A DNA stretch of 64,000 nucleotides, taken from positions 186,001-250,000 of the forward strand of contig NZ_JACZZA010000001.1 in NCBI RefSeq assembly GCF_014863405.1. The letters are read 5' to 3'. The notes beneath the pieces were generated by a model. It did not search any database. It was not told the DNA's origin and saw only the letters and a program-made list of their open reading frames with translations. Of the stretch, positions 50,698 through 59,139 are shown in pieces. Numbering within the stretch: position 1 is the first letter of the stretch; each line of letters starts with the position of its first letter. Origin of the DNA: Dyella acidiphila (GTDB lineage: Bacteria > Pseudomonadota > Gammaproteobacteria > Xanthomonadales > Rhodanobacteraceae). Position numbers and translations under genes: made by a program.

Positions 50698-53430
50698 TTA
50701 CGGCCGCGACTGCCTGGATTGCGTAAAGCGATAGCTGCCGGAATCCAGCTCGAAACAGGTGTCGTCGCCACAGGCGTGCAGATGGTGCGCCTGTGGCAGT
50801 GTCGAGAGCGGTTGCCCGGATATCTGCAGGTTCGCCGGCTTTGCCATCGGCACACGCACCTCGGCCGTGCTGCCGACCGGCACTTCCACACCCAACTGCA
50901 TGCCGGCAGCACCGCGCGACCAGGACACCACGACATGGCCATAAGGTGTGATGGTGTCGCCTTCGGCATGCAACAGCCAGCCCATCAGCGCGGGATGCAC
51001 ACCGATGCGTTGCCATCCGGGCGCCAGCGGCCGCATGCCCACCACATCTTCGAACAGCCAATCGTCGATGGTGCCGAGAAAATAATGGTCTTGCGAACGC
51101 GCATCGAGCTTCCAGTGTTCCCACAGGCTGGTGGCGCCGTGAGCGCGCCAGTAGCCCCAGGAGGGGAAACTGACTTGCATGGCGACCGTCCATGCCAGGC
51201 CCGCGTGACCGGTGGCAGTGAGCACCGGCAGCAGCAGCTTGGTGCCCAGCGCGCCGGTGTCGAGATGATCGTTATGCGCATGCACTGCCTGCATCAATGC
51301 ATCAGCTACCCGCGTTCGTTGCGCCGCAGGAACCAGGCCAAAACCTAGTGCCAACAACTGATGCGTTTGCCGCACACCTTCGTCGCCCTCGCCGCGATAC
51401 AAGCCCTTGGTCGGATCGAAAAAGCGCTGATTGAAAGTATCCCGTACCTGCGCAGCCATGCCATCAAAATGCTGCGCCGCGCGGTCGTCGCCCAGCGTGC
51501 GCTCGATCTGGGCCAGCGTGTCAGCCATGCGATAGAGGTAAGCCGTGGCGGCGATCCGTTTGTCTTCCGGTGCATTGCCGCCATCGGCCGGCGTATTCGG
51601 ACTGACCCAGTCGCCCAGTTCGGTATCGGCAATACCGGCAGGCGAACGCGCGTATTCGAGATCGACATAGCGCGCCATGCCCTGGATGTTCTCGCTGAGT
51701 ACGTGGCGATCGCCGCGCTGCCAGTACAAGAACCATGGCACCAGCACATACGCCGCATGCCAGGGCGGAGCGCGCACATCGACCGCCCAGCCCGGATTGG
51801 GTGCAATCAGCAGCGGCGCGCCATTGGCCTGGCGTGCATCGGCAATATCCTGGACCCATTTGGTCAACAGCGTGCCGGTATCCAGGTTGCGCAGCATCAT
51901 GTCGGTGCCAAGCATGCCGTCACCGGTCCAGCCGTTTTTCTCGTACATCGGCGTGTCGGTGGGAATGCCGTACAGATTATTCAGTACGGTGTGGACGGCG
52001 GCGGCGTGAATCCAGTTGAGCAAGTCGTTGCTGCTATCGAAATGGCCGATTACCCGCACATCGGTGTGCACCACCTGGGCGCTTATGGCGTCGAGTGCGG
52101 GGGGCGCGCCGGGCCAGCCGTCGACTTGCACATAGCGAAAGCCTTTCCAGGAAAAACGCGAATGCCAGCGCTCCGCGCCCGTTCCCGCCAGGATGATGCG
52201 ATCGGTCTGTAACCCGTGCGCGAAGTAGTGGTGATCGTCGCGATCGTCGACACTGCCGTCGGGCAGCAGCTTTTCGCCATAGTGCAGAACCAAGGTGTCA
52301 CCGGCATGGCCCCGTACCGTCACCGTGGCCCAGCCGGATATCACGCGCGGAAACGCAAACACGTAGCCACCGTGACTCAACTTGGTGACAGTTACCGCCG
52401 GCAACGTCTGCACCACCCGCACCGGAGGCTCGCGCTGCGCTTGCAGCACACCCTTGGGCGCCGGAAGTTCCGCCGCCTTGCTCCAATCCCGATCGTCGAA
52501 GCCAGCCGTGGCAAAGCCGGGCAACGCGCGGCGGGCATCGTAGGTCTCGCCGCCATATACGTCATCCAGCAGGGTCGGGCCATCATGCACGCGCCAGTCC
52601 GTGCCAGTGCCGATGAACTGGCAATGCTGGTCCGCGTAGCACAGCTTCAATAAGGCACGTACGCGTGGCTCGCCGTGCCACGGAGCCTTCTCCCAGTGCC
52701 ACACATCCGGATTGGTGAGGCCGTAATAGCCGCGTCCAAGTTCGATACCGATGGCGTTGGCCGATCCTGGCTGCAGCAATGCCGTTACATCATGCGCGAC
52801 ATAAAGCACGCGCTTGTCGTAGTCGGTGAAGTCCGGCGAAAGCACGGCATCGCTTGCGGGCTGGCCGTTGATCGACACATCGGCGTAGCCGCCCGCGGCG
52901 ATATATAGCCGCGCCGACACCAGGTTCGCACCCACGGCAAACACCTGCCGCAATAACGGCGCCGCCAGGCTGCCGCCGGGTGGCTTGCCGATCCACGCCG
53001 CGTGCGACCATTCCTGCATGGAAGGCGCGGTCTCGAACCAGGAACTGGCACTGGCCTCGCCTGTCGACGTTTGCGCAGTGACCTTCCAGTAGTAGCGGTG
53101 CGACGCAAGCAGAGGCGGTCCCGCGTAGGCGATATCGAACGAGGCACGGCTGGCCACGCGCCCGCTATCCCATATATCCGGCCGATCCGCGCTCAGTGCA
53201 GCCGTGCTGGACGCCACTTCAATACGGTAGCCCGTGGGAAACGTGCCACGCGAGGCATTCGCCACGACCCAGCTAAAGCGAGGTGATGCGACATCCAACG
53301 CCAGCGGCTGCGTCTGGTGTTCGATGGTAAGGGCCTGCAGTTGCATCGCATCCGTTGCGTGCGCCATGGAGATGCCAATCAGCAGCACAACAAGCCACGC
53401 CACGCTGCGACGCCACGAACGGATGATCAT
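50698..53430 (-). CDS. Alpha-L-rhamnosidase, GH78 family, exported
   Basis: A 910-residue secreted glycosidase that releases terminal rhamnose from plant glycosides or polysaccharides. A signal peptide of about 24 residues (WLVVLLIGISMAHA) precedes a fibronectin-like domain. The N-terminal beta domain has AARLYIAAGGYADVSING-like sequence near 165. A second beta domain leads into the (alpha/alpha)6 catalytic barrel. The barrel contains TPMYEKNGWTGDG near 500, the GH78 acidic motif region, and ELGDWVSPNTP near 610. The WEHWKL motif lies late in the catalytic part. A C-terminal beta domain ends the protein. I chose the ATG at 53430 because it gives the signal peptide. It stands alone, with no transporter beside it. 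Confidence 0.92.
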   Translation of the reverse strand: MIIRSWRRSVAWLVVLLIGISMAHATDAMQLQALTIEHQTQPLALDVASPRFSWVVANASRGTFPTGYRIEVASSTAALSADRPDIWDSGRVASRASFDIAYAGPPLLASHRYYWKVTAQTSTGEASASSWFETAPSMQEWSHAAWIGKPPGGSLAAPLLRQVFAVGANLVSARLYIAAGGYADVSINGQPASDAVLSPDFTDYDKRVLYVAHDVTALLQPGSANAIGIELGRGYYGLTNPDVWHWEKAPWHGEPRVRALLKLCYADQHCQFIGTGTDWRVHDGPTLLDDVYGGETYDARRALPGFATAGFDDRDWSKAAELPAPKGVLQAQREPPVRVVQTLPAVTVTKLSHGGYVFAFPRVISGWATVTVRGHAGDTLVLHYGEKLLPDGSVDDRDDHHYFAHGLQTDRIILAGTGAERWHSRFSWKGFRYVQVDGWPGAPPALDAISAQVVHTDVRVIGHFDSSNDLLNWIHAAAVHTVLNNLYGIPTDTPMYEKNGWTGDGMLGTDMMLRNLDTGTLLTKWVQDIADARQANGAPLLIAPNPGWAVDVRAPPWHAAYVLVPWFLYWQRGDRHVLSENIQGMARYVDLEYARSPAGIADTELGDWVSPNTPADGGNAPEDKRIAATAYLYRMADTLAQIERTLGDDRAAQHFDGMAAQVRDTFNQRFFDPTKGLYRGEGDEGVRQTHQLLALGFGLVPAAQRTRVADALMQAVHAHNDHLDTGALGTKLLLPVLTATGHAGLAWTVAMQVSFPSWGYWRAHGATSLWEHWKLDARSQDHYFLGTIDDWLFEDVVGMRPLAPGWQRIGVHPALMGWLLHAEGDTITPYGHVVVSWSRGAAGMQLGVEVPVGSTAEVRVPMAKPANLQISGQPLSTLPQAHHLHACGDDTCFELDSGSYRFTQSRQSRP

Positions 53431-53535
53431 CGACGCCGGTCTCTCGCTTTCAATGGAATAGCCCCTTTCTACAGACCGCAGTCTACACAAGCAGAGCCGG
53501 CAGCTATCCGGCAATGCGTGCGAGTGCGCCGGCAA

Positions 53536-53877: not shown

Positions 53878-54323
53878 GGTGGTAGTAATGCGCCGCGTAC
53901 TGGATGGATGGGTGGCGTTTGGATAGCGGGCCTGCTCGAAGGTTTATCTAACAAGAAGGATTTGCTTGCAACCCGCCGATCGACGATCGGATTCCCGCCC
54001 ATCCCCTTAGCCGTGCCTCACAGTTTTTCTCGCAGGTTTCTACGCCACCAGCACAAGAACCAGCACCATGTGCATGAGGGTTCGTCGTCGACGGCGTGCA
54101 TCCCATTCGATTTTCTCGTTATCCGTCATGCAGCTGCCCGTTACGTTGCAATCATCGCTGTAAGCCCATGCACAAAGCCTTCACCTTGATGACGGCGCAT
54201 ATGACTTGCACGGATGAAAATTCCGCTGCATCCGACACTGGCGACGCATTCGGCACGCTCGTAGAGTCGACGAGCCTCCTCTCGGAGGCATCCCATGTGA
54301 TTACTCAAGAAGGAGTCGACACA
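53878..54323. promoter_or_regulatory. Upstream region of the graspetide precursor gene
   Basis: About 446 nt between the TfoX gene and the precursor. The precursor frame is open back to 54096, but the stretch has no good start signal and unusual composition. A small hairpin (GCCTCC, 4 nt, GGAGGC) lies at 54274-54289. The region presumably holds the promoter; I cannot assign -35 and -10 hexamers with confidence. Confidence 0.4.
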
Positions 54324-54482
54324 ATGGTTTCTCAATCTAACGAGGCAACGGAAATCGTCCGCACTTTCGCCCGCCTGCAAGCGGTGAAAGTAACGCGGAC
54401 CGCGGACGAAGACATGGAAAAGGGCCAGTTCATCACCATCCACACACCTCCGGCCGAACCCGAAATCGGCGCACTGGGCTAA
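54324..54482 (+). CDS. Putative graspetide (omega-ester peptide) precursor
   Basis: A 52-residue peptide starting at the ATG at 54324, with AAGGAG eight bases before it. The first 30 residues look like a leader (MVSQSNEATEIVRTFARLQA, amphipathic). The last part, GQFITIHTPPAEPEIGALG, has Thr 38 and Thr 41 followed by Glu 45 and Glu 47. That is the donor-acceptor layout that graspetide ligases join by side-chain ester bonds. A second Thr-then-acid stretch (VTRTADEDMEKG, 23-34) precedes it. The MvdD-like ATP-grasp gene follows after 70 nt. The peptide belongs to no precursor family I can name, and the call rests on gene pairing and residue pattern. The frame extends upstream, so a longer product is possible. 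Confidence 0.65.
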   Translation: MVSQSNEATEIVRTFARLQAVKVTRTADEDMEKGQFITIHTPPAEPEIGALG

Positions 54483-54501
54483 GCAGCGGAACGGCTTGAA
54501 C

Positions 54502-54534
54502 AGCACGCCCCGCCATGCGCGGGGTGTGCTTTCT
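54502..54534 (+). terminator. Attenuator-like hairpin between precursor and ligase genes
   Basis: Stem of 12 bp with one G-T pair (54502-54513 and 54519-54530, 5-nt loop), followed by TTCTTC. It sits 19 nt after the precursor stop and 22 nt before the ligase start codon. The weak T-run suggests partial termination, which would give more precursor than enzyme. Confidence 0.65.
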
Positions 54535-54552
54535 TCATACGGAGGAACGCAC

Positions 54553-55650
54553 ATGCAACACTGCGTGCTGATACTTGCACCCGATACCGACCCCCATGCC
54601 TGCGCCTTGAGCTGGGCACTGGAACAACAGGGTGTCACACCGATATGCATGCCGTCGCTACAAGCCAAGCCCGGCAACCATTACACCTTTCATATCGATG
54701 CCGAGCACGAATTCCTACTTGACTCCAATGTCGGCCAGGGCGTGGTCAGCGCCGTCTGGAACCGCCGCATCCAGGATCCCAATCCCACCTGCGCCGAAGC
54801 CGACGAAGCCTTTGCGCGCCTCGAATGGAAAATGTTCCAGCGCAACATGTTCACCCTCGGCAATGCCTATGGCGACGCCTTGTGGGTAAACCGTCTTCCC
54901 GAAGCGATCCGCGCCGAGCACAAAATGGTGCAGCTGAGCATCGCCCGCAAACTCGGCCTGCCATTCCCCGAAACCGTAATCACCACCGATGTCGGCCAGG
55001 TCGATCTGCTGCGCAAGAAATGGGGTCGCATCATCTTCAAAAGCTTCCTCCCCCATCACTGGCAAGATCAAAAGACCGGTGAACGACACACCGTAGGCGT
55101 CGCCCTGCTCGACCAGCAAAGCGATCTGCCACCAGATGCCATCGCCATCTGCCCCGGCGTCTACCAACGCTATATCGACAAAGCACTCGACGTGCGCGTC
55201 ACGGTAATGGGCCAGCATCTATTCGCCATGAGCTTCGCCAAAGGCGAAAGCGGCGGCTTCCTCGACTGGCGCACCTATACCGACCACCCCGAGATGATCG
55301 CCAAAACCATCACCCTGCCCTCCACCGTCGAAAGCAAGCTACGCGCACTGATGCAGGAACTCGGCCTCGTCTTCGGCGCCATCGACCTGGTAGTGGATCG
55401 CGAAGGCAACTATCACTTCCTGGAAGTGAATCAGGCTGGCCAATTCCTGTTTATGGAAGAAATGAATCCCGACTACCCGATTCTGCAGGCGATGACTGGG
55501 CTGCTGGTGAGTGGCCGTTTGGATAACACCAGCGAAGCCTTGAAACCCGTCACGATGAAGCAGTTTCGTGCTTCGGATGCGTATGCGGCATTGGGGCAGC
55601 GGGTTGCGCAGAAATCGTGGGTGGGGGAGCCGATGTTTTCGGTGGAGTAA
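54553..55650 (+). CDS. MvdD-type ATP-grasp ligase (graspetide maturase)
   Basis: A 365-residue ATP-grasp enzyme of the graspetide/microviridin ligase kind. An ideal GGAGG seven bases upstream fixes the ATG at 54553. The pre-ATP-grasp domain (1-120) ends with the motif AVWNRRI at 68-73, equivalent to the VWYRRP-type motif of MvdC/MvdD. The ATP-grasp core has the nucleotide-binding Lys in GRIIFKSF (163) and YQRYIDKALDVRVTVMG at 204-220. The metal-binding Asp is in FGAIDLVVD (278), and FLEVNQAGQFLF (289-300) supplies the last metal ligands. Such enzymes phosphorylate Asp/Glu side chains of a precursor and form lactone or lactam rings. The small peptide gene lies directly upstream. No transporter, protease or acetyltransferase gene is nearby. 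Confidence 0.88.
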   Translation: MQHCVLILAPDTDPHACALSWALEQQGVTPICMPSLQAKPGNHYTFHIDAEHEFLLDSNVGQGVVSAVWNRRIQDPNPTCAEADEAFARLEWKMFQRNMFTLGNAYGDALWVNRLPEAIRAEHKMVQLSIARKLGLPFPETVITTDVGQVDLLRKKWGRIIFKSFLPHHWQDQKTGERHTVGVALLDQQSDLPPDAIAICPGVYQRYIDKALDVRVTVMGQHLFAMSFAKGESGGFLDWRTYTDHPEMIAKTITLPSTVESKLRALMQELGLVFGAIDLVVDREGNYHFLEVNQAGQFLFMEEMNPDYPILQAMTGLLVSGRLDNTSEALKPVTMKQFRASDAYAALGQRVAQKSWVGEPMFSVE

Positions 55651-55747
55651 GTGCGGAGGCATCACTGCTGCTTCGAGTTACGTTGACCATCGCTGAGCAG
55701 ATGTCTTCATTCCGCTTGACGATCTCAAACATCTCTTCTTCAGTCAT
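55550..55747 (-). CDS. Possible small protein, doubtful
   Basis: A 65-residue frame whose first 40 residues (MTEEEMFEIVKRNEDICSAM and on) look protein-like, with AAGG eight bases upstream. It starts 28 nt after the membrane protein gene on the same strand. Its Pro-rich second half overlaps the 3' end of the ATP-grasp gene in antisense by about 100 nt, which argues for a shadow. No family is recognised. The earlier start at 55786 would overlap the upstream gene. Confidence 0.2.
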   Translation of the reverse strand: MTEEEMFEIVKRNEDICSAMVNVTRSSSDASALTPPKTSAPPPTISAQPAAPMPHTHPKHETASS

Positions 55748-55775
55748 GGATAAAGCCTTAGGGTTGGAGCACTTT

Positions 55776-56681
55776 TTAGAAAGCATTTAGCGCTTCTGCG
55801 CCTGCATTGGCGACCTGGATATGAGAATGCTTGGAACAGAGCAACGCAATAGGTTTCAGATCGACTGAAGGGCGCTTGGCAATTTCATTGGCGACTGCCT
55901 CACCCAGATAAAAGTTTTGGTCGACAGCCATCCTCTCGAGGAGAGTGACATCCGATAGGTCCATGGAAGGAATGAGAGCCAAAGCAATAGAAATGTCATC
56001 ATCGGCCCCTTCAATCAAGTCTCGTATGACACGCGACAACGCCACTTGGTCTGATGGGACGGGAGATAACTCAGGATGCATTTCACGCAACGGCTGGCCG
56101 CTCTCTTTGCACCGACGTACTCCATCGAGGAAATCGCCAAGACTTCGAAAGACCACGCGTGAATCATCATCATGGGGCAAGAAAAGGACGCAACCTTCAA
56201 ATGGATGCCAGCGCAGAAGGATGTGATGATCGCTGGTGTTAGGATCGTCGAGCACCAAGCCGTTGAAAAACTGTATCAATGGATGGTCGAAAATCTGATC
56301 AGTAAACGCCTCGGCGTCCTCCCGCTTGAGCAAATTTACTTCGATCTCAAACATCTCAGAGTAAGCACCCGTGCTGACCTCCTTGAAATAGGATTCGGCC
56401 TCAAGAGAAGTGGCTGCATGGAATCGCCCGTTTAAAGGGGGCATCCTCCGTTCCTGTGCAGGATTAAGATGCCTTCTAAAAATACGCTCAGCGAAGTAAA
56501 GAACGATCATTCCCATGGCTAAAATCAAAGGAAGACTCAATACCGAGAATGCGCCCCATCCCCAGGAGTAAAAGGGCGCAGATACTCCGCCCCAGAGCAG
56601 GAGTAAAAGTGCATATTCGACAACGCCCCAATGCGCGATTGATTGCCTGAACGCCCGGAGTGCAAGGCTTAGCTTGGCCAT
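55776..56681 (-). CDS. Unrecognised two-helix membrane protein
   Basis: A protein of about 301 residues starting at the ATG at 56681 (MAKLSLALRAFRQSIAHWGV). Two adjacent membrane helices (about 20-32 and 43-62) are followed by a long cytoplasmic part. That part contains HHILLRWHPFEGCVLFLPHD and VVFRSLGDFLDGVRR, a strand-turn-strand and FLxxV pattern loosely like SMI1/KNR4 (SUKH) domains. A helical C-terminal part reads like HEAT repeats (NEIAKRPSVDLKPIALLCSK). The frame runs on upstream to 57035, but residues there derive from an integrase remnant, so the start is uncertain; an ATG at 56780 is another choice. It is AT-richer than core genes and probably acquired. No function is assigned. Confidence 0.55.
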   Translation of the reverse strand: MAKLSLALRAFRQSIAHWGVVEYALLLLLWGGVSAPFYSWGWGAFSVLSLPLILAMGMIVLYFAERIFRRHLNPAQERRMPPLNGRFHAATSLEAESYFKEVSTGAYSEMFEIEVNLLKREDAEAFTDQIFDHPLIQFFNGLVLDDPNTSDHHILLRWHPFEGCVLFLPHDDDSRVVFRSLGDFLDGVRRCKESGQPLREMHPELSPVPSDQVALSRVIRDLIEGADDDISIALALIPSMDLSDVTLLERMAVDQNFYLGEAVANEIAKRPSVDLKPIALLCSKHSHIQVANAGAEALNAF

Positions 56682-56789
56682 AGTCCTTGTCTGCTCTCCA
56701 TTTCCCCATAAGACACGTTGATAAAAGCGCTCACAGCAGGGCAACCGAACAATTCTGGCCGAGAAGAGCCTTAGCTTCATCTGCGCGAA

Positions 56790-57290
56790 ATTTATAATGG
56801 AGGCAACGGGGGTCTGCGCACCCAGCTTGCCCACAAATGTTTTTAAAGCCCGTTGGCGACCATCCCAGGTATCGCCCTTGAGCCCAGGCGCCTCCACCTC
56901 GGCGTAATTTTGGATGGCTTTTTCTAGGGTCAAGCCCGAAGGTGGGGGTGGTGCAGAAACCTGCTTAGGACTGGCAGGAGGGTGCTGTTTTTGAAATGCC
57001 TTCCTTGCCTCAACGGCGCGCTCCATGGATTCCATCCCTCTGCCATGGTCGGCTTCATCATCGGCCTAAAAAATGCCCCTTTCGAGGTCGATTTTGTATT
57101 TGATGTTGGTTCCTTGCTGGAACCCCTCCACAAGGTCTTTGACCGATGGTGGCCCGCTCCTTCCCCCGAAGGTCCTTGAAGGTCTGAGCATACCGCGACG
57201 CCAGCACCAAGGCGAAGGCTTGGGCCAGCCGTCTGTCATGGGTTTGGAGGGTCTGACTGATGACGACTTGGGCAGTGAGGGGCCGAAGGT
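56790..57290 (-). pseudogene. Tyrosine integrase N-terminal remnant, frameshifted and truncated
   Basis: Three minus-strand frames joined end to end give the N-terminal half of a phage-type integrase. About 57290-57150 reads TLQTHDRRLAQAFALVLASR and on. After a frameshift, 57150-57070 reads VEGFQQGTNIKYKIDLERGI. After another shift in a T6 run near 57070, the frame continues through MESMERAVEARKAFQ into the core-binding SAM-like domain (SGLTLEKAIQNYAEVEAPGL, TWDGRQRALKTFVGKLGAQT). Similarity stops near 56795, and the catalytic domain with its Arg-His-Arg-Tyr residues is absent. The remnant lies on the 3' side of tRNA-Gln, where island integrases normally sit. Confidence 0.75.
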
Positions 57291-57365
57291 CAGTAAGACC
57301 AGCTCCGATCCCTTTTAAGGGTCGCGCGCTCGTATGAAGAGCCGATTTATCGCAAGCACGCCAAT

Positions 57366-57755
57366 TTATTCGGCAGAGTAAAACTCTGTCACTTGGGTGT
57401 GCTGCCCGCCGACGTTGTTAGCAGCATGAGCGGTCACCCCAAGTTGACCACCTTGCTCAGTAGCCGTGATTAAGCACATGTCTTCTGGCATAGCTCCGAC
57501 TGACACTCCTTGCCCTGGTGCGAGCACAAGGTGGGCCTCTGCGTTGTTTGTGGCCTGGCGAACAACGCCATCCTTCACGTAAAGGTTGGAGGCATTTGGC
57601 CCAAATACACTCAAATCGACGCGAGGTATGAAATGAACTTCGACACCTCCGGCGGCTTTTGTAATCTTGTCGATCCAGCAGATGTCGCTGGCGTTTGCCA
57701 ACACCGGTAGAAGCAGCAATACGCACGCTATTAGAGGCAACACTTTCCTGTTCAT
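57366..57755 (-). CDS. Small secreted hypothetical protein
   Basis: A 129-residue protein with a clear Sec signal peptide (MNRKVLPLIACVLLLLPVLA, cleavage after ANA near 22), leaving a mature protein of about 107 residues. The mature part has two Cys residues (DICWID near 26 and EDMCLIT near 94), which could form a disulfide. It has no membrane segment after the signal. No family is recognised. GGAAG precedes the ATG. It lies between the integrase remnant and tRNA-Gln and shares the lower GC of the island. Confidence 0.65.
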   Translation of the reverse strand: MNRKVLPLIACVLLLLPVLANASDICWIDKITKAAGGVEVHFIPRVDLSVFGPNASNLYVKDGVVRQATNNAEAHLVLAPGQGVSVGAMPEDMCLITATEQGGQLGVTAHAANNVGGQHTQVTEFYSAE

Positions 57756-58002
57756 GCTTATCTTCCGGGGTGATGTGCGCTCGATCTTAATCTGCCATCA
57801 GGTATCGCACACACGCAGCAGTGCATGGGTGCCTTCGGGCCATAAAAGACCGCCGATGCAGGGTCTTGATGTTTATTGGGAGGCTGAGATTGTTCACGCC
57901 ATTTACGCCCCCCGCGCTACACGCTCCGGGGCCACCGTTTCGCGCTGTCCAAATTTGTTCCAGACAAATTTGTCAGACAGAGCCCCCTGGCCCTCCCAAT
58001 CC
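57756..58002. other. Intergenic stretch with an AT-rich inverted repeat
   Basis: About 250 nt without a convincing gene between the secreted protein gene and the tRNA terminator. A 9-bp inverted repeat (CAAATTTGT, 5 nt, ACAAATTTG) lies at 57950-57972. I see no second copy of the tRNA 3' end here that would mark an attachment site. Confidence 0.4.
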
Positions 58003-58043
58003 AAAAACAAAAAGCCCGCCATAAAGGCGGGCTTTTTGTTTTT
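58003..58043 (-). terminator. Long palindromic terminator of tRNA-Gln
   Basis: Perfect 18-bp stem (58003-58020 and 58026-58043, 5-nt loop) with the GC core AGCCCGCC and A/T-rich ends. On the minus strand its first base is the last base of the tRNA CCA end, so it starts exactly where the tRNA ends. Confidence 0.93.
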
Positions 58044-58116
58044 GGCTGGGAGACTAGGATTCGAACCTAGATAAACGGAGTCAGAGTCCGTTGTCCTACC
58101 GTTAGACGATCTCCCA
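58043..58116 (-). tRNA. tRNA-Gln (anticodon CTG)
   Basis: A 74-nt tRNA on the minus strand with CCA encoded. The acceptor stem TGGGAGA pairs with TCTCCCA. The anticodon arm is ACGGA-CTCTGAC-TCCGT, giving anticodon CTG. The T arm CTAGG-TTCGAAT-CCTAG is perfect. The sequence agrees with proteobacterial glutamine tRNAs. It borders the degraded integrase region and may have been the integration site. Confidence 0.97.
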
Positions 58117-58183
58117 ATACCTTGCCGATCGATGCGCTCTGACTTGATGCATCGCTCAGTCGAACCGCAACCTCGGGTGAGGA

Positions 58184-58576
58184 TTAGCGCTTCGAGAACT
58201 GGGTAGCGCGACGTGCCTTGTGCAGACCGACCTTCTTACGCTCGACTTCACGGGCGTCGCGGGTCACGAAGCCAGCCTTGCGCAGCTGGGTCTTGAGGCT
58301 TTCGTCGTACTCGATCAGGGCGCGGGCGATGCCGAGGCGGATCGCACCGGCCTGGCCGGTGATGCCGCCGCCAGCGACGGTAACCTTGATGTCGAACTTG
58401 TCAGCGCTCTGGGTCAGTTCGAGCGGCTGGCGCACGATCATGCGCGAGGTCTCACGACCGAAGAACTGGTCCAGGGTCTTGCCGTTCACTTCGATCGCGC
58501 CGGTGCCCTTGCGCAGGAACACGCGAGCTGCGGAGGTCTTGCGGCGGCCGGTGCCGTAATTCTGCTGAATCGCCAT
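58184..58576 (-). CDS. rpsI: 30S ribosomal protein S9
   Basis: A 130-residue S9 starting [20 protein letters not shown] and ending in the conserved [17 protein letters not shown], whose C-terminal tail reaches the P-site tRNA. It follows rplM by 9 nt in the invariant rplM-rpsI operon. The tRNA-Gln gene lies downstream on the same strand. Confidence 0.99.
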
Positions 58577-58585
58577 GTTGCTTCC

Positions 58586-59014
58586 TTAGATTTCCAGCGC
58601 CTGCGGCTGCTGGGCGGTATGCGGATGTTCGGCGCCGCCGTAAACCTTGAGCTTGCGGTACATGGCGCGGCCCAGCGGGTTCTTCGGCAGCATGCCCTTC
58701 ACGGCGATCTCGATGACTCGCTCGGGATAGGTGGCCAACAGATCCTTCAGGCTGATGGTCTTGAGGTTGCCGACGTAACCGGTGAAACGGTGATACATCT
58801 TGTCGTCCAGCTTGGCGCCGGTGACAGCCACCTTCTCAGCGTTGATCACGACGATGTAGTCGCCGGTATCGACGTGCGGGGTGAACTCGGGCTTGTGCTT
58901 GCCGCGAAGGCGACGCGCGATTTCGGTCGAGAGACGACCGAGCGTCTTGTCCGTGGCGTCAACCACGTACCAGTCGCGCTTGACGCTTTCCGGCTTGGCG
59001 CTGAACGTTTTCAT
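58586..59014 (-). CDS. rplM: 50S ribosomal protein L13
   Basis: A 142-residue L13 starting [20 protein letters not shown] at the ATG at 59014. The earlier in-frame start at 59038 is not supported by homology. Conserved blocks are [20 protein letters not shown] and [20 protein letters not shown]13 is an early assembly protein of the large subunit. It is the first gene of the rplM-rpsI operon and diverges from the glcF-like gene. Confidence 0.98.
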
Positions 59015-59139
59015 TTCGGAATACCTGTCTGCCGCCACAAGGGCGGTAAGCGGAATCGGTGGAACAAAGGCGCGAGATGATAGCGAAGCTTACATCCATC
59101 GCGCAAGCCCACGGTGGGCTGCGAGCTGCGAATGATAGC

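Follow-up and report, generated by a model that had tools for sequence, protein, structure and literature searches.

A predicted two-gene graspetide cassette in Dyella acidiphila and its relatives among the Rhodanobacteraceae

Described graspetides and the Dyella locus

The closest described systems to the locus reported here, a short peptide gene followed by an ATP-grasp ligase gene in Dyella acidiphila, are the graspetides. The locus lies in a stretch of 64,000 nucleotides (contig NZ_JACZZA010000001.1, positions 186,001 to 250,000), called the window below, and the pair is very probably a two-gene graspetide operon making a predicted bicyclic ester peptide. It resembles the microviridin system, with the enzymes MdnC/MdnB (MvdD/MvdC) and the precursor MdnA, in the enzyme fold and in the ATP and Mg residues. 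An acidic patch of MdnC reads an invariant arginine of the leader, and the window-type leader keeps an invariant arginine as well; the microviridin leader motif given in PMC7823629, PFFARFL, resembles the window-type RxFARxxA. The differences are also clear, since identity to MdnC and MdnB is 26-27% in the fold alignment, microviridin needs two enzymes where the window has one, and the window-type core is FLTxxT...EPE, while that of microviridin is TxKxPSD. Among 40 distinct precursors (close loci and protein-database sequences combined) none has a lysine in the core, so that the microviridin core is absent and no microviridin-like lactam is expected. Microviridin clusters are also described as carrying an acetyltransferase and an ABC transporter (PMC5934393).

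Graspimiditides (group 13, fuscimiditide ThfA/ThfB) share with the window pair the use of a single enzyme, and ThfB makes nested esters between threonines and acidic residues (PMC12291112). Their RPFG leader tetrapeptide, as described in PMC13003496, is similar to the window-type leader. However, the window-type acceptors are Glu and not Asp, and the loop has 3-5 residues instead of 10-12. Graspimiditide loci are further marked by a linked isoaspartyl methyltransferase. No gene is common to the 38 neighbourhoods examined below, and thus there is no sign of a conserved methyltransferase, for which no specific search was made. In plesiocin (group 2, PsnB) the core spacing is TT...EE. The window-type core has the spacing TxxT...ExE and a single core unit, and the PsnB structure matched the window enzyme in phmmer with an E value of 0.028 only.

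Many graspetide core types have been published, including groups 27, 28 and 35, which consist of enzyme plus precursor only (PMC13097080). Compared by their description, these groups have the two-gene architecture of the window pair; group 27 is described there as rich in candidate phyla. The Xanthomonas/Lysobacter precursor clusters 70, 75 and 859 belong to gammaproteobacterial graspetide ATP-grasp loci and have similar leader regions among dissimilar cores, again by description only (PMC8939145). In the literature searched on graspetides, Dyella, Luteibacter and relatives, with supplementary group tables outside the search, no paper describing this clade was found, nor one combining graspetide and Luteibacter. 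PMC9576775 covers both graspetides and Dyella, and the Dyella item in the text seen is a lanthipeptide. PMC13097080 predicts 21,584 graspetides; the clade may already be among them and may even have a group number. An earlier note on this DNA had suggested that the product could be new: this may hold for the subfamily, but the graspetide class and two-gene groups are already published. The present analysis contributes the subfamily with its invariant core and the C39-free clade.

Precursor, synthetase and the hairpin between them

The pair had been noticed as a 52-residue peptide gene and an ATP-grasp ligase with good ribosome binding sites, forming a minimal cluster, and all of this was borne out. 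Both open reading frames (ORFs) have good purine-rich sites (Table 1). The left-hand genes point away from the pair and the right-hand genes point towards it, and the transcription unit is therefore two genes. The precursor sequence is MVSQSNEATEIVRTFARLQAVKVTRTADEDMEKGQFITIHTPPAEPEIGALG. An alternative gene call, which uses another start and gives 104 aa, is probably wrong; an in-frame stop just upstream in Dyella flava speaks for the start at 54324.

Fourteen of the enzymes analysed, that of the window among them, reach at least 52% identity (close enzymes, type 1 below); directly upstream of every one lies an ORF with the RxFAR leader and the EPE core. The 40 precursors share the leader RxFARxxA and the core F[L/I][T/S]xxT-(3-5)-EPE, in which F, T41, E45, P46 and E47 are invariant. 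The first donor, at position 38, is T in 37 precursors and S in 3, and the residue after the core F is L in 39 and I in 1. The loop between the second donor and the first acceptor has 3 residues in 6 precursors, 4 in 6 and 5 in 28. In all 40, donors stand ahead of acceptors ([T/S]43, T46, E52 and E54 in alignment numbering). The earlier note recognised no TxKYPSD-like core and looked to conserved Thr/Ser and Glu/Asp in aligned ORFs; both points held, and the core can now be defined as [T/S]xxT...EPE. No conserved Gly-Gly precedes the core among the 40 precursors, and none of the 14 close loci has a precursor matching Pfam or NCBIfam. A protein-database search with the 14-row precursor profile gave 35 clusters, the only protein names given being hypothetical or uncharacterized protein; the organisms named were Dyella, Luteibacter and Oleiagrimonas, and many precursors were metagenomic. 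A six-frame search with the profile in 233 family genomes (at most 25 first-pass candidates scored per genome) found 18 matches in 17 genomes, each upstream of an ATP-grasp match at no more than 0.45 kb. Four of these were outside the profile (G116, G232, a second copy in G008, and G005; G, C and L numbers are our handles for genomes, contigs and loci), three of them weak, with E values from 7.5e-6 to 6.2e-4. The nonsynonymous and synonymous rates (dN/dS) against D. flava were 0.128/0.527 for the precursor and 0.032/0.623 for the enzyme, which suggests that both genes are kept by selection and that the substrate changes faster than the enzyme.

The AVWNRRI and FLEVNQAGQFLF motifs, taken earlier as marks of a maturase, are present in the ligase. 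By profile and modelled fold it matches graspetide maturases, which are ribosomally synthesised and post-translationally modified peptide (RiPP) enzymes, above RimK-type ligases, as had been proposed. K124, K163, R215, D278, E291 and N293 are invariant in 36 of 36 enzymes and align with identical MdnC residues; we take them to have ATP- and Mg-binding roles, from the ATP-grasp fold. The acidic residue that contacts the leader arginine in MdnC is kept. Among the relatives returned for the ligase, only that of Dyella flava DHOC52 (94% identity) was named.

A GC-rich stem follows the precursor stop in all 14 type-1 loci. The z-scores of the whole gap range from -1.27 to -5.26 over these loci (window -3.83), and the alignment consensus has 7 pairs, 3 with two-sided change, while at most 2 of the 14 sequences break any pair in that register. 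In the window the hairpin has a T-rich tail, and four terminator-like sites were found in 53880-55900, against 1.7 expected. The hairpin could be a leaky terminator or a 3'-end stabiliser holding the substrate in excess over the enzyme.

Table 1. Features of the predicted graspetide cassette and its flanks (window coordinates)
Feature	Position	Strand	Remarks
Ribosome binding site of precursor, AAGGAG	54310..54315	+	8 nt 5' of ATG
Graspetide precursor gene (predicted), 52 aa	54324..54482	+	kept in 14/14 close loci (window counted); 40 distinct sequences
Leader recognition motif R13-T-F-A-R-L-Q-A20 (RxFARxxA)	54360..54383	+	R, F, A, R, A invariant in 40/40
Predicted core F36-I-T38-I-H-T41-P-P-A-E45-P-E47	54429..54464	+	donors T38, T41; acceptors E45, E47
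GC-rich 12-bp hairpin between the precursor and synthetase genes, then TTCTTC	54502..54530	+	attenuator-like or mRNA-stabilising
Ribosome binding site of synthetase, GGAGGA	54541..54546	+	6 nt 5' of ATG
Graspetide synthetase (predicted ATP-grasp macrolactone ligase), 365 aa	54553..55650	+	profile, residues, modelled fold
Flanking gene, alpha-L-rhamnosidase	50698-53535	-	Pfam Bac_rhamnosid domains
Flanking gene, 419-aa protein	55776-57035	-	no Pfam match

Enzyme clade, neighbourhoods and genomic site

ATP-grasp homologues with E values of 0.001 or less occur at 65 places in 47 of the 233 family genomes. Sixty of these places were analysed, leaving out G116 (contig end), the fragments in G230, in G118 and as a second piece in G232, and G028 (two stops). 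The 38 best form the clade considered here, with E values below 1e-70, the next match being at 1.4e-48. An upstream ORF with an R[PTA][FLM][AG]R-type leader was found by script for 37 of them, and the 38th, G089, has RPFAH by eye, whereas the script found none for the 22 weaker, distant enzymes. The small upstream ORF anticipated in homologues is thus conserved throughout the clade. In the tree, support is 96/94 for the group of 38 enzymes and 100/100 for a clade of the 14 EPE-core enzymes; the root is at the midpoint, some branches in the distant part are long, and four of the 60 enzymes were too short and were left out. Core layouts vary inside the clade, for example FVSVRSGPAFNDWPD or FLTMITMTASIHSPADGGLDYD. 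A donor motif of the type [FY]h[T/S]xx[T/S] was found by script in 29 of 37 precursors, so that it holds only partly and was rejected as universal. Among the eight misses, G160 reflects a wrong ORF chosen by the script, its true precursor matching. In a reduced set the motif occurred in 11 of 17, against a shuffled mean of 1.1, and none of 5000 shuffles was as high.

The window genome harbors three such cassettes. The two extra ones (C21:279739-280794 and C23:251308-252375) each have their own precursor, with VRPFGRL and VRPFARM leaders and differing cores. In a 369-genome sample of the class, the best-scoring match outside the genome itself had an E value of 2.2e-37 at 30% identity, and partial matches reached 38%; the close clade therefore looks restricted to Rhodanobacteraceae, as far as sampled. 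Several cassettes per genome were seen elsewhere too. G002 has four ATP-grasp matches in total and, at C1:1239794-1260297, two dissimilar graspetide cassettes with about 18 kb between them, and the five ATP-grasp matches of G232 (C16, C17 and C18) are three RxFAR-type cassettes, one C39-linked locus and one fragment.

The earlier note had found no transporter or protease linked to the pair. This was sustained for the window, where the five neighbour proteins scanned with Pfam have no such domain, and for the C39 transporter-peptidase, but three related loci have an MFS transporter gene upstream. C39 was searched by tblastn with four domain queries from the distant loci G112, G108, G013 and G232, which match themselves and which a separate Pfam search also found. 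The flanks covered were 4.3-8.6 kb on each side for 37 clade loci and 1.5 and 2.1 kb for G113. No C39 match was seen in any of the 38 clade neighbourhoods, other kinds of protease and transporter not all being scanned for, whereas a match lay near 14 of the 22 distant loci. Five further distant loci with a 1.5-kb flank have one 1.9-2.1 kb off by coordinates, among the matches listed, so that at least 19 of the 22 distant graspetide-like enzymes have a C39 domain within 3.4 kb (for example L085, L090 and L102). At the distant locus G013, a Gly-Gly peptide ORF lies upstream (L012 1257-1424).

An unlinked C39 transporter-peptidase as a general partner was not supported. In 6 of the 15 type-1 genomes (G006, G012, G116, G117, G141 and G145, all at least 99% complete, five being multi-contig drafts and G012 one contig) all C39 matches fall in frames of 234-418 aa, which could not accommodate a peptidase-transporter. 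G113, which is 80% complete, has one weak match in a 720-aa frame. The other eight have stronger matches (E 1.7e-26 or better, among the matches listed), and a C39 protein may act as partner there. A shared partner gene near the cassettes was also rejected. Families of proteins of at least 90 aa were compared over the 38 loci; the clusters of 38, 14, 8 and 5 loci represent the enzyme or ORFs that overlap with the cassette, and no other family is common to more than four neighbourhoods. Among these small families are a LytTR response regulator with a histidine kinase (G107, G108a, G117 and G145) and a TonB receptor. In G117 (L050 5595-7178), G107 and G108a the MFS gene precedes the type-1 precursor by 150-300 bp, shares its strand and is close to the LytTR regulator and the kinase. 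The three MFS genes have 76-100% identity to one another's query, and we read this Luteibacter-type trio as shared synteny. A distant MFS gene near the G008a cassette (27% identity) has the other orientation and is about 2 kb off.

The segment common to the window and D. flava is 54109-55669, with 85% DNA identity; in the flanks compared, only short repeats align. Since the alignment is confined to about 1.56 kb, either the cassette itself travels as a unit of this length or the DNA around it is replaced. In D. flava a distance of about 18.6 kb separates the cassette from the tRNA-rpsI-rplM block, with order and orientation unchanged, and both loci may go back to one old site that received insertions later. 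The rpsI side of rplM-rpsI holds a cassette in three Dyella genomes (window 54553-59038; G006:C31:402179-422819; and L115 in G008:C32, 6696-8859), at distances of about 2.5 kb for type 1 in the window, about 18.6 kb for type 1 in D. flava and about 280 bp for an RPLARL type in G008; this side may be an insertion hot spot. There is a palindromic terminator beside tRNA-Gln(ctg) in the window (58001-58116). The D. flava cassette is directly followed by a similar terminator and a piece resembling a tRNA 3' end (L044 8299-8353), and similar terminator or tRNA-like pieces are dispersed in the eight Dyella genomes searched. The best match among 82 plasmid records had 34% identity, and the phage set had 2 records.

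Ring formation, alternative readings and meaning

By analogy with MdnC/MdnA and ThfB/ThfA, the precursor would dock on the ATP-grasp enzyme through the RTFARLQA leader helix. Following the chemistry of the family, the enzyme with ATP would phosphorylate the side chains of E45 and E47, and two omega-esters would be closed with T41 and T38, with a loss of 36 Da. The rings are probably nested, as T38-E47 and T41-E45 macrolactones; this stem-loop pattern is suggested because the two donors stand at a constant distance from each other, as do the two acceptors, whereas the loop joining the pairs varies in length. The hairpin 3' of the precursor gene would probably hold precursor levels well over those of the enzyme. 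If the leader is removed and the product exported, other, mostly unlinked functions would serve, because no C39 transporter-peptidase is present in the unit.

Crossed ester pairing (T38-E45 and T41-E47), or a single ring, is possible but doubtful. Interlocked rings occur in microviridin-type graspetides according to PMC13097080, and an expressed group 2 relative gave one dehydration in spite of two conserved acceptors and at least two conserved donors (PMC9576775). However, the stretch from the inner Thr to the first Glu varies (loop of 3-5 residues) while the donor and acceptor spacings are fixed, which argues against both, and the layout is that of the nested fuscimiditide stem-loop (PMC12291112). 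It is very improbable that the enzyme works like RimK, LysX or PGM1, attaching amino acids or linking the peptide to a different substrate, and forms no side-chain rings. In both the profile and the fold comparison every graspetide ligase listed ranked above RimK, and the peptide encoded upstream carries a leader motif, places its donors ahead of the acceptors and conserves Thr and Glu strictly; a non-RiPP ligase was accordingly not favoured. Short ORFs are common and the gene call uses another start, but a chance ORF, with the substrate of the enzyme elsewhere, was rejected as almost certainly wrong on account of conservation, linkage to the enzyme and purifying selection. More weight belongs to an intracellular fate, in which the graspetide keeps its leader, is never processed or exported and acts, for example, on a host protease; we consider it unlikely. 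It would agree with the C39-free flanks of all 38 cassettes, the lack of a widely shared neighbour family, the six type-1 genomes without an ABC-length C39 protein and the absence of a conserved Gly-Gly before the core. Nevertheless, unlinked proteases and exporters are possible, the leader proteases of microviridin and graspimiditides are likewise reported as unknown (PMC5934393, PMC12291112), and the strong core variation between sister cassettes fits an outward target. The MFS linkage in the trio, with the distant gene in G008a, also lowers slightly the odds of intracellular readings. A whole graspetide lineage lacking a dedicated leader peptidase and exporter, with up to three cassettes per genome and a bicycle acting in the producer, perhaps as a leader-bound inhibitor of a host protease, would be a still bolder proposal and seems improbable.

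The two-gene graspetide operon is thus the preferred reading, and several observations weigh against it. The scores to the NCBIfam MvdD and MvdC equivalogs (TIGR04184, 133.8 of 475 bits; TIGR04185, 134.4 of 425) and to GRASP_SAV_5884 (TIGR04187, 167.5 of 350) are all under the curated cut-offs and no Pfam family reaches its cut-off, so that of the MvdD-type assignment made earlier only a likeness to MvdD stands. A consensus search of 53880-55900 gave no sigma-70-like promoter. Five of the 14 loci have modest hairpin z-scores (-1.27 to -2.18), and not every locus retains the U-tract. In G117, G107 and G108a the MFS gene is a candidate for the exporter, and its position on the same strand just upstream means that the unit may be larger there than a bare pair of genes. 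Finally, ring formation and pairing are predicted from sequence and not from chemistry; other Ser, Thr, Asp or Glu residues of the peptide might take part, and the product may have one ring or none.

The locus offers a small system for ring-forming chemistry, with a 52-aa substrate, one enzyme, two conserved donors, two conserved acceptors and no lysine in the core. In this natural family, moreover, a single leader type and a single enzyme clade are paired with several core layouts. The split between C39-linked and C39-free synthetases within one bacterial family makes a neglected question testable, namely whether some graspetides never use a C39 peptidase-transporter and whether any act inside the cell.
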